A stretch of 64,000 bases of DNA, taken from NCBI RefSeq assembly GCF_001654455.1, contig NZ_CP015772.1, positions 5,084,001 through 5,148,000 on the forward strand, in the 5' to 3' direction. Source of the stretch: Niabella ginsenosidivorans (GTDB taxonomy: Bacteria > Bacteroidota > Bacteroidia > Chitinophagales > Chitinophagaceae). Position numbers and translations under genes: made by a program. Position 1 is the first letter of the stretch; each line of letters opens with the position of its first letter. This document shows, piece after piece, positions 58,245-64,000 of this stretch. The notes under the pieces were generated by a model. The model was not told the origin of the DNA and did not search any database. It saw only the letters and a list, made by a program, of their open reading frames with translations.

Positions 58245-59273
58245 TTAGACAAACAGCGTTACTATATAATAAATAATGGCTGCAACAACCGCGCTAACAG
58301 GTATGGTCAGGATCCAGGCAATGAGCAGGTTAATAGTAACGCCCCATCTTACAGCAGAGAGCCGCTTGGTGGCCCCAACGCCAATGATGGCGCCGGTTAC
58401 CGTATGGGTGGTACTTACCGGTATGCCCATACCTTCAGTAAGGATCAGCGTGGAGGCGGCGGCTGTTTCAGCAGCCACTCCTTCCAGCGGGGTAACTTTG
58501 GTGATCCTGGTGCCCATTGTCTTTACAATTTTCCAGCCACCGCTCATGGTTCCCAACGCTATGGCGCTGTAACAGGCAATGGGGATCCAGTTATGGGAAA
58601 GCAGAATATCCTTGGGGTCCACATCAGGGCTCATAGTGCCTGCCTGCACCCCATGGTAAAGGATCACTACAGAAATCAGTCCCATTACTTTCTGGGCATC
58701 ATTACCTCCATGCCCCAGGCTAAAGGCGGCCGATGATAACAATTGTAACCGCTTAAACCATTTTTCTGTTACATAAGGGTTCTTTTTCCGGCAGATCCAG
58801 TAAATGGCCAGTGTAATCATAAAAGCCAGCAGCATACCAATTAATGGGGAAAGAAAGATAAACACCACGGTTTTTATAAAATTGGCCATTACTATTACAT
58901 CTATAGTATGTGCTTTTGCAATTGCAGCGCCTATTAAACCGCCTATTAAGGTATGTGAAGAGCTTGAAGGGATACCAAACCACCAGGTAAACAGGTTCCA
59001 TACAATAGCGGCCATTATAGCCGCCAGTATCACTATCAGGTCAAAATCCAGGAATTCCGGCTTTACCGTTTTGGCAATCGTATCGGCCACTTTATGATCT
59101 TTAAAAACAAAATAGGCAACAAAATTCCAGAAGGCGGCCCACAGCACCGCCTGAAACGGCGTTAATACTTTTGTGGAAACGATGGTGGCGATTGAATTGG
59201 CCGCATCATGAAACCCATTGATATAATCAAAAATCAAAGCCAGCCCAACAATTACTATAAGAAGTGTTAACAT
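58245..59273 (-). CDS. pit: Inorganic phosphate transporter, Pit family
   Basis: A 342-residue low-affinity phosphate permease driven by the proton or sodium gradient. The internal two-fold repeat is visible: DYINGFHDAANSIATIVSTK in the first half and STTHTVTGAIIGVGATKRLS in the second; about ten hydrophobic segments. I start at ATG 59273 (MLTLLIVIVGL), because the upstream ATG at 59348 would add a non-hydrophobic 25-residue tail and overlap DUF47. Follows the DUF47 gene after 46 bases in one operon, the usual order. Its length is at the short end of the family, as in many Bacteroidota. Confidence 0.94.
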   Translation of the reverse strand: MLTLLIVIVGLALIFDYINGFHDAANSIATIVSTKVLTPFQAVLWAAFWNFVAYFVFKDHKVADTIAKTVKPEFLDFDLIVILAAIMAAIVWNLFTWWFGIPSSSSHTLIGGLIGAAIAKAHTIDVIVMANFIKTVVFIFLSPLIGMLLAFMITLAIYWICRKKNPYVTEKWFKRLQLLSSAAFSLGHGGNDAQKVMGLISVVILYHGVQAGTMSPDVDPKDILLSHNWIPIACYSAIALGTMSGGWKIVKTMGTRITKVTPLEGVAAETAAASTLILTEGMGIPVSTTHTVTGAIIGVGATKRLSAVRWGVTINLLIAWILTIPVSAVVAAIIYYIVTLFV

Positions 59274-59319
59274 ATATCTGTAATGAGTTTGGAGAAAGAA
59301 GCGATTATAAAATCCATTA

Positions 59320-59967
59320 TTATGCGTACTTGATAATAATGGATTCAATTACATTTCCGGCATCTTCGCATTTATCAGTTACGGTTTCCATTACCTGGTA
59401 AATGTCCCGCTTCTTAATGACTTCTTTGGCGTCCGGTTCCGTATCAAACAGCTTTTCAATGCTCAGGTCAAACACGTCATCTGCCTGGTTCTCTATACTG
59501 TTTATTTTAATTAAACCTTCGGTAATGTCCCTGATCTTCTTCATATCACGCAGTTCCATTACAACCACTTTTATCTGTTCAGTAGCTGCTTCAATCAATT
59601 CCACCATTTTCAGCAGCCCTGTTTCATTGGGATTGACGCGGTAGAGCTTGATCTTTTTCACTGCCGAATAAATATAATCAGCAATATCATCCAGCGATGT
59701 TGCCAGGGAATGAATGTCTTCCCGGTCAAAAGGCGTTATAAAATTTCGTCCCAGCTCAGTAAAAACATTATGGGTCAGCTCATCATTGTCATGTTCCAGG
59801 TCAATGATCTGCTGTACATAGGCGTTTCTTTTGTCCAGGTCAGGCTCGGATGCAAATTTTTTTAATATGGCACCCATCAGGGATACATTGTCGGAGATTT
59901 TTTCAAACAGCTCAAAAAAAATGGTATTCTTCGGAGTAAACAGTTTAATAAATGAATTTAATCCCAT
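59320..59967 (-). CDS. DUF47 family Pit accessory protein (PhoU-like)
   Basis: A 215-residue all-helical PhoU-like protein: FFELFEKISDNVSLMGAILK, DLEHDNDELTHNVFTELGRN, FITPFDREDIHSLATSLDDI and DYIYSAVKKIKL, VMETVTDKCEDAGNVIESII. The E/D-x-x-x-D metal-binding pattern (EHDNDE, DDIADY, KCEDAGN) is intact. DUF47 genes sit directly before pit in many bacteria and control or gate the transporter. First gene of the operon, with a -7 box at 59995-59988. Confidence 0.92.
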   Translation of the reverse strand: MGLNSFIKLFTPKNTIFFELFEKISDNVSLMGAILKKFASEPDLDKRNAYVQQIIDLEHDNDELTHNVFTELGRNFITPFDREDIHSLATSLDDIADYIYSAVKKIKLYRVNPNETGLLKMVELIEAATEQIKVVVMELRDMKKIRDITEGLIKINSIENQADDVFDLSIEKLFDTEPDAKEVIKKRDIYQVMETVTDKCEDAGNVIESIIIKYA

Positions 59968-59987: not shown

Positions 59988-59995
59988 CAAAAATA
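59988..59995 (-). promoter_or_regulatory. -7 box of the DUF47-pit operon
   Basis: TATTTTTG on the minus strand, 20 bases before the DUF47 start codon. No clear -33 TTG. Confidence 0.5.
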
Positions 59996-60149
59996 TTCTG
60001 TTCGGGCCTGTTATACCATAAAATTAAAGGAATTAATAATTCCTTAATATGCAAAAGAAAGCTTTCGTTTCTTTTTTCTTTAAGGATGCACATTTTTCCC
60101 TGCGTCATTCACCGGTTATAAACAAAAGGAACCAGCTGCTGAAAGGGCC

Positions 60150-60226
60150 TTAACATTATAGTAATCTTGCGGTGATGATTTGGTAACAGTGGCGTAACAA
60201 TGAGGTAATACAGCGGTTTGACTTTT
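60150..60226. promoter_or_regulatory. Array of seven 11-bp direct repeats, candidate Pho operator
   Basis: Counting from 60150 every 11 bases, the first six bases of each unit are TTAACA, GTAATC, GTGATG, GTAACA, GTAACA, GTAATA, GTTTGA. The second base is T in all seven. On the other strand the half-site reads TGTTAC-N5. PhoB-family regulators bind tandem half-sites at exactly 11-bp spacing. The array ends 17 bases before the TonB receptor start and lies about 155 bases from the -7 box of the divergent phosphate-transporter operon. Confidence 0.7.
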
Positions 60227-60242
60227 GCAGCAAACAAGAAAC

Positions 60243-63014
60243 ATGTACTTAAGGCTGCTTACAGCATTTATTCTTACTATCTGTTCCCAGATAGTTTATT
60301 CCCAGGTCCGGTTATCCGGAAAAGTGACCGATAATCAAACAGGCTTGCCGATTGCAGGAGCTTCCGTAACACTGTCTGGAGAACAGAAAGGGGTTGTTAC
60401 AGATGTAGATGGAGGGTTTTATATACCCGTAAACAAAAATGCAAAATATAGCATAACGGTTTCCAGTGTAGGCTACCAGGCAAAAGAAGTAACGGATATT
60501 GAGGTTACTGATAAAGAGGTGCCTACTGTGAACGTGACATTGGAAAAAGCCAACCAGCAATTGCAGGAGGTGGTGGTAAAGAGCAGTGCAAAACGGGAAT
60601 CGGTAGCTTCTTTATATAATACACAAAAACTAAGCGCGTCCATTTCTGATGGGATCTCCGCGGATGTAATTAAAAAATCGCCGGACAGGAATACCGGGGA
60701 TGTATTAAAGCGGGTAAGCGGGGCGTCTATTCAGGACGATAAATTTGTGATTATACGGGGGCTTAATGAACGCTACAATACGGCGTTATTAAATAATTCA
60801 ATTTTACCAAGCACAGAGCCTGATAAAAGGGCCTTTGCCTTTAATATTATCCCGGCGGCAGTAATTGATAATGTAGTTATTTTCAAATCTGCAACACCTG
60901 ATTTGCCAGGTGATTTTGCCGGAGGGGCCATAAAAATCACGACCAAGCAATATCCGACAACCCGGTTAAGTGAACTATCGCTTTCTATAGGGTATAATTC
61001 TATAACAACATTTAAAGGATTTAAAACATCTGAACCCAATGGCAAATATGATTTTTTGGGGTTTTTTGATGATTCAAGGGATTTGCCACGTTCCTATTAT
61101 AATTATAGAAGTAATTTTACATCATTACCTGCTGATTACAAGACTGCTGTAACAAAACTTTTACCCAATAATTATGGCTATAGTAATGGTTCAAATGCAT
61201 TGCCAAATCTGAATTTAAATTATATTGGAGGCAATTCAAAACTAATAACCGGAGATAAAAAGTTTGGGTATATATATTCAATAGGATATGGAATATCTCA
61301 ACAATATAAACCCTCAATGCTAACAGAATATGATAACTCTAAAAACGAGCTATACAATTATAATACAGATGCCTATATTCAAAAATATAATTTAAACGCC
61401 ATACTGAACCTCAATTATTCTTATAATAGTAATAATACTATTTCGTGGAAAACCCTTTTTAATAATGATTTGTCAAAAACCACAGGTATTCGGGATGGTA
61501 AAAATATTTCAAACGGGAATGATGTACTATACTATAAAAGTATTTTAAATGAAGCCAGGCAGGACGGCTTATTTAATTCAGTATTTGATGGTAAACATAA
61601 AATAGGCGCGGGCGCTTTGGATTGGAATGCCTCTTATTCCTATACGTACAGGAACGAGCCCGATCAAAGAATCTTAAACTTTCAGTCAACAGATAATCAA
61701 AACTATTTTAGAACAATTAATAATGAATACTCTCCGGTTATTCAGGACGCCGGCAGAATTTGGTCAAAAACAAATGAAAATATTATTGGAGCCAATCTAA
61801 ATTATCAATATCCATTTGACTGGCTGAGTTTTGAGCAAAAACTGAAAATAGGATATTCCGGATATTACAGATTAAAAAATGTAGACGTGAATGCATTGGG
61901 CTATGCATCACTAAATGCCGGAGGCGCAGTGCTCAGTGCCGCTCAGGGAGAGAATATGTTTGCTGTTTTTTCACAGGAAAATATTGACAGGTATGGTTTG
62001 GTAATCGCCAATATAGGGAATAATTCTACCAATTATCAGGGGAAAGGATTTTTGAATGGCGGATATATTATGTTGAATAACCGATTTACCAACAAACTGA
62101 AATTTGATTGGGGTGTTCGGGTTGAAAACTATAACCAACGTCTTATTCCTGTATCTGGCAGCCTCAAAGTTCAACGGCAAAACCTTGATTTTTTGCCTTC
62201 TGGTAATTTAACATACGAATTAACACCTAAAACCAATTTAAGATTAGCAGCTTCGCAATCTGTTAACCGGCCAGAATTTAGAGAAATTGCTTCTTACAGT
62301 TTATATGATTACAACACAGACTTTATTTATAAGGGAGATCCTGATTTAATAAGAAGTAAAAATATAAATACCGATTTAAGGTATGAATTTTTCCCGGCCG
62401 CGGGTGAAATTATATCAGCAACTGTTTTTTATAAAAACTTTAAAAACCCGATCGAACAAATAAATGCAGGGAATAACATATTATCTTATCAGAACGCTAT
62501 TAAATCTGAAGTATACGGTGGTGAGTTAGAAATAAGAAAGAAGCTGGATTTTTTGAGCAGCGATTTTTTTAATAACCTGACCTTCTATACGAACCTTTCT
62601 TATATCCATGGGTCTATTCAACTTCAAAACTCAAATAGCAACAGTGGATTAATGCAGGGCCTGTCTCCATATATTATTAATGGCGGTCTGACATATGATA
62701 ACAGAGATTTTGCAGTAAACGTTTTATTCAACAGGATCGGCCCACGATTGGCTTTTCGGGGACAGAATGACCAGGCACAGGATATTTATGAAAAACCAAG
62801 GAGCGTCTTAGACGCACAGGTTAGCAAGAAATTGATAAAAAATAAGCTGGAAGTCAAATTAACTGTTGGAGATATTTTAGCGCAACCATTTAAAATGTAC
62901 TACCGTTTTGATAAGACATTAAAAAGTCCTGAATATGATGCATCTTCTGATAAGATTACAAGGCAATATAAAATGGGATCAACCGGAATACTTTCTTTAA
63001 AATATAATTTTTAA
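60243..63014 (+). CDS. TonB-dependent receptor, probably phosphate-regulated
   Basis: A 923-residue outer-membrane TonB-dependent transporter. Signal peptide LLTAFILTICSQIVYSQ; CarboxypepD_reg domain (about 25-110: VRLSGKVTDNQTGLPIAGAS); plug with KKSPDRNTGDVLKRVSGASI, QDDKFVIIRGLNERYNTALL and FAGGAIKITTK; a 22-strand barrel to the last GILSLKYNF. I chose the ATG 60243 (MYLRLL) instead of the TTG at 60225. It is followed after 18 bases by a beta-helix lipoprotein and preceded by an 11-bp repeat array near pit, which together suggest uptake of a phosphorus compound; this is inference. Confidence 0.9.
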   Translation: MYLRLLTAFILTICSQIVYSQVRLSGKVTDNQTGLPIAGASVTLSGEQKGVVTDVDGGFYIPVNKNAKYSITVSSVGYQAKEVTDIEVTDKEVPTVNVTLEKANQQLQEVVVKSSAKRESVASLYNTQKLSASISDGISADVIKKSPDRNTGDVLKRVSGASIQDDKFVIIRGLNERYNTALLNNSILPSTEPDKRAFAFNIIPAAVIDNVVIFKSATPDLPGDFAGGAIKITTKQYPTTRLSELSLSIGYNSITTFKGFKTSEPNGKYDFLGFFDDSRDLPRSYYNYRSNFTSLPADYKTAVTKLLPNNYGYSNGSNALPNLNLNYIGGNSKLITGDKKFGYIYSIGYGISQQYKPSMLTEYDNSKNELYNYNTDAYIQKYNLNAILNLNYSYNSNNTISWKTLFNNDLSKTTGIRDGKNISNGNDVLYYKSILNEARQDGLFNSVFDGKHKIGAGALDWNASYSYTYRNEPDQRILNFQSTDNQNYFRTINNEYSPVIQDAGRIWSKTNENIIGANLNYQYPFDWLSFEQKLKIGYSGYYRLKNVDVNALGYASLNAGGAVLSAAQGENMFAVFSQENIDRYGLVIANIGNNSTNYQGKGFLNGGYIMLNNRFTNKLKFDWGVRVENYNQRLIPVSGSLKVQRQNLDFLPSGNLTYELTPKTNLRLAASQSVNRPEFREIASYSLYDYNTDFIYKGDPDLIRSKNINTDLRYEFFPAAGEIISATVFYKNFKNPIEQINAGNNILSYQNAIKSEVYGGELEIRKKLDFLSSDFFNNLTFYTNLSYIHGSIQLQNSNSNSGLMQGLSPYIINGGLTYDNRDFAVNVLFNRIGPRLAFRGQNDQAQDIYEKPRSVLDAQVSKKLIKNKLEVKLTVGDILAQPFKMYYRFDKTLKSPEYDASSDKITRQYKMGSTGILSLKYNF

Positions 63015-63032: not shown

Positions 63033-64000
63033 ATGAAACATTTAAAAACAATGACCACAATCATGTTGGCTGCAATTGTGTTCGCCTCCTGCAGCAACAA
63101 AGATAGTGAATTACCACCGCCGGTAACGCCACCCGGAGAAAATGGCACCGTTGACATAAGGGGAAGCATCAGTGCTAACCAAACCTGGACAAAAGATAAA
63201 AAGTATCGTCTAAGGGGATATGTTTATGTAGAAAACGGAACTACATTAACGATAGAACCTGGCACGCAAATAATTTCAAATGCAGATTCTGCAGGAGTAC
63301 TTGTTATTTATAAAGGGGCAAAAATTAATGCTGTCGGAACGGCAACAGATCCTATTGTTTTTACATCGGCTGAAGCCAATCCTGCTCCAGGTCAATTAGG
63401 TGGTGTTATACTGGTCGGAAATGCTACAGGAAATGGAAACCATTCTGTTTTAGAAGGAGGTGTTGATGCTGCGCATCAAAAATTTGGAGGTACAAACGAT
63501 GCTGACAATAGCGGAACAATGCAATATGTGCGCATTGAATACGCTGGTAAAGCTGTAAATCCGAATGATGAAATTAATGGTCTGTCTTTGTATGCTGTAG
63601 GTTCCGGAACAACGATTGATCACATTCAGGTGGTTAATGGTTTGGATGATGCATTTGAATTTTTCGGAGGAGCCGTAAATTGCAAATATTTAATTGCATA
63701 TAACTGTGCGGATGATGATTATGATATGGATGACGGATATCATGGAAAAATTCAATTTGCCGTTTCTGTAAAAGCTCCGGGCTGGACTGACAACAAAACC
63801 GGAGGAGACCTTTCCAACAATTTTGAAGTAGATAATACAAACGGAACTCTTCCATATACTACAACACCGGTTACGCATCCTATTTTGTCCAACTTCACAG
63901 CAATAGGACCTAATAATGCGGCAGGAACTTCTGCAGATTATGGGTATGGCATGCGGTTTAGAAGAGGAAGCAAGCCAGTACTTGCCAATTCGGTTATATT
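63033..64000 (+). CDS. Beta-helix lipoprotein, 3'-truncated by window end
   Basis: Starts at ATG 63033 with a lipoprotein signal (TTIMLAAIVFASCSNKDSEL) and runs open to the window edge, 322 residues visible. After a short Pro-rich linker (PPPVTPPGENG) come short repeated strands typical of right-handed parallel beta-helices: YRLRGYVYVENGTTLTIEPG, GVLVIYKGAKINAVGTATD, MQYVRIEYAGKAVNPNDE and the acidic NCADDDYDMDDGYHG. Such lipoproteins often follow a TonB receptor and may bind its ligand; the acidic cluster could bind metal. The end is missing, so a C-terminal sorting domain cannot be excluded. Confidence 0.82.
   Translation, partial: MKHLKTMTTIMLAAIVFASCSNKDSELPPPVTPPGENGTVDIRGSISANQTWTKDKKYRLRGYVYVENGTTLTIEPGTQIISNADSAGVLVIYKGAKINAVGTATDPIVFTSAEANPAPGQLGGVILVGNATGNGNHSVLEGGVDAAHQKFGGTNDADNSGTMQYVRIEYAGKAVNPNDEINGLSLYAVGSGTTIDHIQVVNGLDDAFEFFGGAVNCKYLIAYNCADDDYDMDDGYHGKIQFAVSVKAPGWTDNKTGGDLSNNFEVDNTNGTLPYTTTPVTHPILSNFTAIGPNNAAGTSADYGYGMRFRRGSKPVLANSVI

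Follow-up and report, generated by a model that had tools for sequence, protein, structure and literature searches.

The intergenic region upstream of a TonB-dependent receptor gene in Niabella ginsenosidivorans was found to contain six direct repeats with a step of 11 bp (table 1). Very probably, they make up a Bacteroidota-type Pho box ([CG][GT]TAA[CT]A, step 11 bp), with room for three PhoB dimers in a row, which would activate the receptor gene and the adjacent lipoprotein gene under phosphate starvation. The window, as used below, is the whole stretch of 64,000 nt that was analyzed (positions 5084001–5148000 of the 5.63-Mb single-contig genome). A Pho box was expected to show at least two direct repeats at 11 bp, a fixed placement directly upstream of the -10/-7 element, phosphate-starvation genes downstream, and a linked PhoB-type regulator encoded in the genome.

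Table 1. Features of the receptor locus and of the divergent operon (positions in the window)
Feature	Position	Strand	Remarks
Putative Pho-box array, six 11-bp direct-repeat half-sites	60150..60215	+	Unit starts 60150 (TTAACA), 60161 (GTAATC), 60172 (GTGATG), 60183 (GTAACA), 60194 (GTAACA), 60205 (GTAATA); profile R1 matches 60149-60191 and 60193-60229
Promoter spacer (start of the seventh unit of the original prediction)	60216..60219	+	GTTTGA at 60216 agrees with 3/6 consensus positions
-7 element GACTTTTG	60220..60227	+	One base off TAnnTTTG; same offset in relatives
TonB-dependent receptor	60243..63014	+	PF13715, PF07715, PF14905/PF00593; ATG inferred from signal-peptide-like N terminus
Lipoprotein, next gene after the receptor	63033..64000	+	464 aa; ends near 64427, beyond the window
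PhoU_div (DUF47) phosphate-transport regulator, divergent	59320..59967	-	PF01865
PiT-family phosphate transporter (PHO4), second gene of the divergent operon	58245..59348	-	PF01384
Own -7 element of phoU_div-pit, TATTTTTG	59988..59995	-	Read on the minus strand
Palindrome around GGAATTAATAATTCC upstream of phoU_div-pit	60024..60047		Kept in Niabella drilacis

Extent and Significance of the Array

The original prediction described seven GTAACA-like units. All seven 11-mers are present where they were placed, and six of them agree with KTAAYA at 33 of 36 positions in sum, the weakest being the unit at 60172. The seventh falls short of the consensus and overlaps the promoter. The array is real and has six units, and the supposed seventh is promoter spacer.

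No dinucleotide shuffle of the intergenic region (n = 5,000) attained a score of 33, and the best scored 28; the top six-unit score in 100 shuffles of the whole window was also 28. The opposite strand of the window gave a six-unit score of 25, and spacings of 9, 10, 12, and 13 in the window gave at most 28. When the segment 60150–60215 was matched against itself, peaks appeared at shifts of 11 (0.55) and 22 (0.50). The window array contains the direct repeats at 11 bp (at least two) expected of a Pho box, and they are specific to this step. It was also recovered independently by a profile (R1) whose training set came from other genomes only and comprised 23 promoters (10 receptor, 12 plcP, and 1 pst).

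Geometry of the Receptor Promoter

The -7 element of Bacteroidota promoters has the consensus TAnnTTTG. In the window, the last unit starts 15 bp before the -7 box GACTTTTG and 19 bp before the TTTG of this box. The same unit-to-TTTG offset of 19 bp was observed in the plcP and SusC promoters of this genome (one of the compared boxes reads TTCG). Among relatives, it is 19 bp in nine of ten promoters and 20 bp in one, the offset in three of the nine being measured from the unit that precedes the box-overlapping unit; since R1 is fixed in length, a 19-bp offset is favored among its own matches. The window array therefore has a fixed placement directly upstream of the -7 element, and it very probably serves the promoter from which the TonB receptor and the lipoprotein are transcribed. 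With the ATG at 60243, the receptor leader would be very short.

Divergent phoU_div-pit Operon

The array is located in the intergenic region common to phoU_div-pit and the receptor, and it had been proposed to control both sides. The receptor side of this proposal stands, as the receptor promoter is phase-locked with the array. A bidirectional operator would have a geometry that fits both promoters, whereas the window array fits the receptor promoter only and faces away from pit; a -7 box of its own, TATTTTTG, serves phoU_div-pit at a distance of about 150 bp, and this operon also has a separate conserved palindrome. We consider it unlikely that the array also governs phoU_div-pit, even though in another genome (locus L273) an R1 match immediately precedes a PhoU_div gene. 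Because this gene sits behind an array, phosphate control of PhoU_div genes is likely in other genomes.

The palindrome at 60024–60047, TTAAAGGAATTAATAATTCCTTAA, is conserved in Niabella drilacis (L105) and, more weakly, in L106 and L108. Judging from its sequence, it is possibly an operator of a second regulator. The phoU_div product shares 76% identity with its N. drilacis counterpart.

Conservation of the Receptor Locus

The nearest named relatives of the receptor were found in Arachidicoccus. We inspected 15 of 16 loci of receptor relatives for arrays (L114 was left out). The array is clear upstream of 10 of the 15 orthologs, which belong to Arachidicoccus, Pedobacter, Niabella, Ferruginibacter, Chitinophaga, a Kapaibacterium MAG, and others; it is partial in two loci (L107 and L111) and was not seen in the remaining three inspected (L104, L109, and L113). 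In all but one of the 15 loci, the receptor is followed by a relative of the lipoprotein. In addition, phoU_div-pit occurs near the receptor locus in Niabella, Ferruginibacter, and Chitinophaga, and in the last of these plcP is found there too. Sequence searches with the lipoprotein found neither a Pfam family nor a relative of solved structure. The predicted model of a homolog is strand-rich, and a fold search matched it weakly to beta-helix proteins (best E 7e-4, low TM scores).

The view that such a long array is uncommon was not supported by this comparison, as array-bearing receptor promoters mostly hold four or six units. Among 13 receptor promoters with a countable array, eight have six units, four have four, and one has three; a stricter counting rule, applied to 16 receptor promoters, gave six units in seven, four in three, one in two, and none in four. 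R1-selected promoters of the family (n = 28) have four units in 20 cases, six in three, an odd number in three, and none in two, counts which are biased to four by the selection with the profile. The plcP promoters are mixed, with three units in four of nine counted. Under the stricter rule, no count was obtained for 4 of 16 receptor promoters, 20 of 29 plcP promoters, 14 of 21 pst promoters, and 2 of 28 family matches. The even numbers suggest that the operators are made of whole dimers, a construction which is not proven by these counts because R1 itself covers four units. In several six-unit arrays, the weakest unit is the fourth counted from the promoter, as is the unit at 60172 in the window.

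Targets in the Same Genome

According to the original prediction, a genome scan would place the motif upstream of phosphate genes. The bare two-unit motif was not enriched: KTAACA-N5-KTAACA with one mismatch occurs genome-wide at 129 places versus 143 for the reversed control, and three units with three mismatches occur at 368 versus 390 places. Enrichment appeared once lattice and promoter were scored jointly. Three units followed by TTTTG at the right offset (up to three mismatches, both strands) were detected at 30 places against 23 for the reversed control, and the window array is the only one of the 30 without any mismatch; with three units alone, it is also the only zero-mismatch place among the matches listed (forward strand). 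The single place with one mismatch to the three units plus TTTTG lies before genes for a PlcP-like metallophosphoesterase and a glycosyltransferase, a pair for phosphate-free lipid remodeling, and one of the three places with two mismatches is between a metallophosphoesterase gene and a SusC/SusD pair. Using R1, whose E-values are rough, we found the top three matches in this genome at plcP-agt (E 0.001), the window promoter (0.009), and SusCD/phosphoesterase (0.011), followed by the next independent match at 0.056. Only the top-scoring places, or the profile, discriminate from the controls.

The matches of this genome below the top three (E ≥ 0.056) were treated as noise, although the geometry is right in L201 (a DUF218 protein) and L202 (a universal stress protein); these two weak matches (E about 0.2) have the right box spacing and could be further targets. 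As a separate observation, one reading frame is present at five places of the genome (L045, L047, L049, L051, and L054), with 436 aa in four of them and 377 aa in L051, and looks transposase-like by eye.

Distribution of the Array in Other Genomes

To examine plcP promoters, we took the best 30 of 149 matching genomes among 295 genomes of the class; one trimmed locus was dropped, and one of the remaining 29 is from the genome of the window. The unit matrix was built from receptor arrays, including that of the window, and contained none from plcP. At step 11, 16 of the 29 plcP promoters were at or above the 99th percentile of shuffles of the same promoter, whereas the control steps of 8, 9, 10, 12, 13, and 14 gave 1, 0, 0, 1, 2, and 1 of 29, respectively, and the reverse strand gave 0. 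No significant array was found in the other 13.

In the 900 bp upstream of pstC (28 loci, after two trimmed ones of 30 were dropped), 5 of 28 were significant at step 11, against 0–3 of 28 at other steps (three at step 9) and three on the reverse strand; the near-upstream regions of the other 23 gave no significant array. As pstC is mostly not the first gene, about 4 kb upstream was taken for 20 of these 23 negative cases. None of their genomes had supplied plcP or pst training sequences, and some of the species may overlap with the ten receptor-training genomes. R1 matched at E ≤ 0.05 in 16 of these 20 Bacteroidia genomes, the best match being always in sense, and 4 of the 20 regions had no R1 match. 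Controls drawn from the same genomes (20 matched regions) had no R1 match at E ≤ 0.3. The sites expected at pst were sought in other genomes, and found there, because Pst genes were not detected in the genome of the window. Of all R1 matches at E ≤ 0.05 in the pst regions, 23 of 24 are in sense, and one region has an additional antisense match (E 0.016). The first genes behind the 16 pst arrays encode PstS in six loci, Porin_O_P in four (one locus has both), and PhoU_div in one; those of six arrays have no Pfam match.

At E ≤ 0.02, R1 had 97 matches in the family, distributed over 22 of 25 genomes, where about 0.5 would be expected; some of these genomes and matches are close relatives of training genomes or sequences. 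The first gene starts at most 60 nt away in 26 of 28 loci (29 loci outside the genome of the window, one of them trimmed). Eighteen of the first-gene products resemble proteins encoded behind arrays in that genome, i.e., the receptor (11), the lipoprotein (2), PlcP (3), and SusC (2), the weaker receptor matches being possibly generic. Of the unmatched products, seven were scanned with Pfam, which assigned them to Porin_O_P (one), the phosphodiesterase/alkaline-phosphatase superfamily (two), Exo_endo_phos (one), and a choice-of-anchor protein (one), with no match for two. For 51 further family matches, a gene start was found within 80 nt in 41. Phosphate-starvation genes, namely plcP-agt, SusCD/phosphoesterase, pst, Porin_O_P, and PhoU_div, are therefore located downstream of such arrays.

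Candidate Regulator and Mechanism

The genome of the window has eight PF00486 matches, seven of which are intact OmpR-family regulators. For one of these (L120, G000:C1:5518253-5518921), PhoB is the best NCBIfam model with 225.7 bits, below the cut-off of 296.2; another regulator of this genome reaches 210.1 bits with the same model. This PhoB candidate adjoins a PhoR/PnpS-like kinase, and its ortholog was detected in 25 of 25 family genomes, including three in which the R1 match is absent. Its recognition helix is DRTIDVHIRKIR, compared with DRTVDVHIRRLR in Escherichia coli PhoB, and is absent from the six other intact regulators. A linked, genome-encoded PhoB-type regulator is indicated by this helix and by the linkage described below, its model score being below the equivalog cut-off.

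With seven intact OmpR-family regulators in one genome, the lattice might be bound by another member, either an ArcA-like one or, as in Riemerella, a global PhoP; the link to phosphate would then be indirect. DAP-seq of Riemerella anatipestifer PhoP gave a motif with a conserved TTTAACA over 583 peaks; it was likened to that of ArcA, and many of the targets are non-phosphate genes (PMC9603813). We regard this explanation as improbable: R1 matches are concentrated on pst, porin, plcP, and receptor genes, and the PhoB-type recognition helix occurs only in the PhoB candidate. Moreover, an R1 match was found no more than 10 kb from the ortholog of the PhoB candidate in 7/25 genomes, more often than for the other OmpR-type regulators listed (3/125; Fisher P-value = 1.4e-4). 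Chance periodicity in A+T-rich DNA, with which the absence of genome-wide enrichment of the bare two-unit motif would agree, is practically negligible in view of the shuffles, the conservation across families, and the recovery of the array by R1. The proposal of a PhoB-like operator for phosphate genes is upheld by the 11-bp lattice and promoter at plcP-agt, SusCD/phosphoesterase, and pst together with the linkage of the PhoB candidate, the probable binder.

No clear array was seen by eye in the phoB promoter of this genome. Sense R1 matches upstream of phoB orthologs occur in only a few of the 25 genomes (L256, E 0.0014; L254, 0.022; L265, 0.075; L257, 0.087), and phoB autoregulation is therefore not claimed.

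We infer that the array is bound by the PhoB candidate, that this binding activates the promoter, and that the signal is low phosphate. In phosphate-starved cells, phosphorylated PhoB would occupy the array head-to-tail, which would put the promoter-proximal dimer at the -35/-33 position, with a constant spacing to the -7 box. This dimer may recruit RNA polymerase, and the receptor and lipoprotein would then be transcribed and might scavenge phosphorus compounds at the cell surface. In E. coli, the phosphate signal is relayed to PhoR by Pst-PhoU. The genome of the window (99.98% complete) has no PstB over the cut-off and no PstC match; as Pst was not found in this host, the signal to PhoR needs another route.

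Comparison with Known Systems

Similar to the window array, the Pho boxes of E. coli pstS and phoB consist of 11-bp direct repeats in the same orientation to the promoter (GTCAC aligns with GTAAC), and several units are present at pstS. If the -10 boxes of K-12 pstS and phoB are where we take them to be, 15 bp separate them from the G of the last GTCAC/GTCAT half-site, which equals the distance in the window. The two systems differ in their cores, GTAAC(A) in the window and GTCAT/GTCAC in E. coli, and in the window the repeats are joined to a -7 element of the Bacteroidota TAnnTTTG type. An E. coli-type Pho box (CTGTCAT core) was rejected for the window, whose core is GTAACA, and R1 had no match to the E. 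coli pstS region.

The PhoP operators of Streptomyces also consist of 11-nt direct repeats in variable number, but they have a GTTCACC core and a different host, a distinction made here by their description in the part of the article available (PMC4415409). The PhoP motif of R. anatipestifer comes from the same phylum, and its TTTAACA agrees with the TTAACA/GTAACA units of the window; it was reported as one ArcA-like motif, and in the accessible part of the article we found no description of an 11-bp array tied to a -7 element or of a pst/plcP regulon (PMC9603813). As stated in the original prediction, a described Pho box of this form is not known for the group; in the open-access literature searched, no Bacteroidota consensus was found, with the exception of the TTTAACA motif, which is published. 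In Bacteroides fragilis, PhoB binds the pstC promoter in EMSA and is required for low-phosphate expression; this is a Bacteroidota PhoB on a pst promoter, but the word "consensus" is absent from the article, and no site sequence was found in the passages available (PMC3547664).

The phoBR-TBDT-FII cluster of Flavobacterium johnsoniae (Fjoh_0543-0546) resembles the window locus in having a receptor with the same domains and a lipoprotein, there assigned to a pectin-lyase-type fold, a likeness that is confined to domains. The pair adjoins phoBR in F. johnsoniae and phoU_div-pit in the genome of the window, and Fjoh_0545/0546 are strongly induced on phosphate depletion, as far as the available part of the article tells (PMC8115612). 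By analogy, the receptor and lipoprotein of the window may respond to phosphate.

The phosphate regulon of Bacteroidota, which are common members of plant, soil, marine, and gut communities, is unusual. With a site model, this regulon becomes readable from genomes, down to surface receptors and lipoproteins that are still unknown and a small RNA candidate, and a testable list of SusCD/TonB systems that take up phosphorus compounds can be drawn up. We lean toward a wider reading, in which the whole phylum shares a Pho-box code ([GT]TAA[CT]A, 11 bp, mostly four or six units, 19 bp from the -7 TTTG); other genera of the family would also have a small RNA (UUUUCUCAUGCAGU plus terminator) as a riboregulatory arm, and in hosts in which no Pst was found the PhoR signal would have another source, for which Pit/PhoU_div is the obvious candidate.

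Small RNA Candidates behind Pho-Type Arrays

Some R1 matches are not followed by a gene. Instead, they are followed by a short segment containing TTTCTCATG and a terminator. The candidate small RNA of Chitinophagaceae is about 60–140 nt long, with a Pho-type array upstream and a core TTTTCTCATGCAGT followed by an intrinsic terminator. It was first found in L311, L312, L315, L318, and L320. One match of a model (R2), a terminator in L237, was a plain false positive and was rejected.

A further model (R3), built from five sequences with the promoter left out, was searched in 195 genomes of the family. It matched at E ≤ 0.01 in 103 of the 195, the weaker matches being probably generic terminators or other transcripts, and gave no match, under stricter filters, in the genome of the window. 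Seventeen of the top 30 R3 loci have a sense R1 array at E ≤ 0.01 just upstream (L370-L376, L381, L384-L387, L390-L392, L397, and L399, each near position 1500), and these 17 include five training genomes and two congeners of one of them. The first core is TTTTCTCATGCAGT or ATTTCTCATGCAGT in 11 of the 17. At the gathering score, Rfam had no match to the RNA in any of the 12 loci tested out of these 17, nor in six earlier loci, and a small RNA of this kind was not found described in the open-access literature.

The core TTCTCATG also precedes the terminators of other transcripts without an array in 8 of the top 30 R3 loci (e.g., L377-L380), and for this reason it may be a shared pairing seed; its complement GCAUGAGAAA could pair with mRNA start regions. 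In L377-L380, L382, L389, and L393 (near position 1500), a sequence similar to CTCCGGGGA...CATCCCTGGA and a TTTTCTCATG core occur before the terminator without a Pho array. At the gathering score, these array-less transcripts had no Rfam match in the five loci tested, where the only match was to a neighboring tRNA in L393. In some genomes, the small RNA candidate is located convergently behind phoBR.
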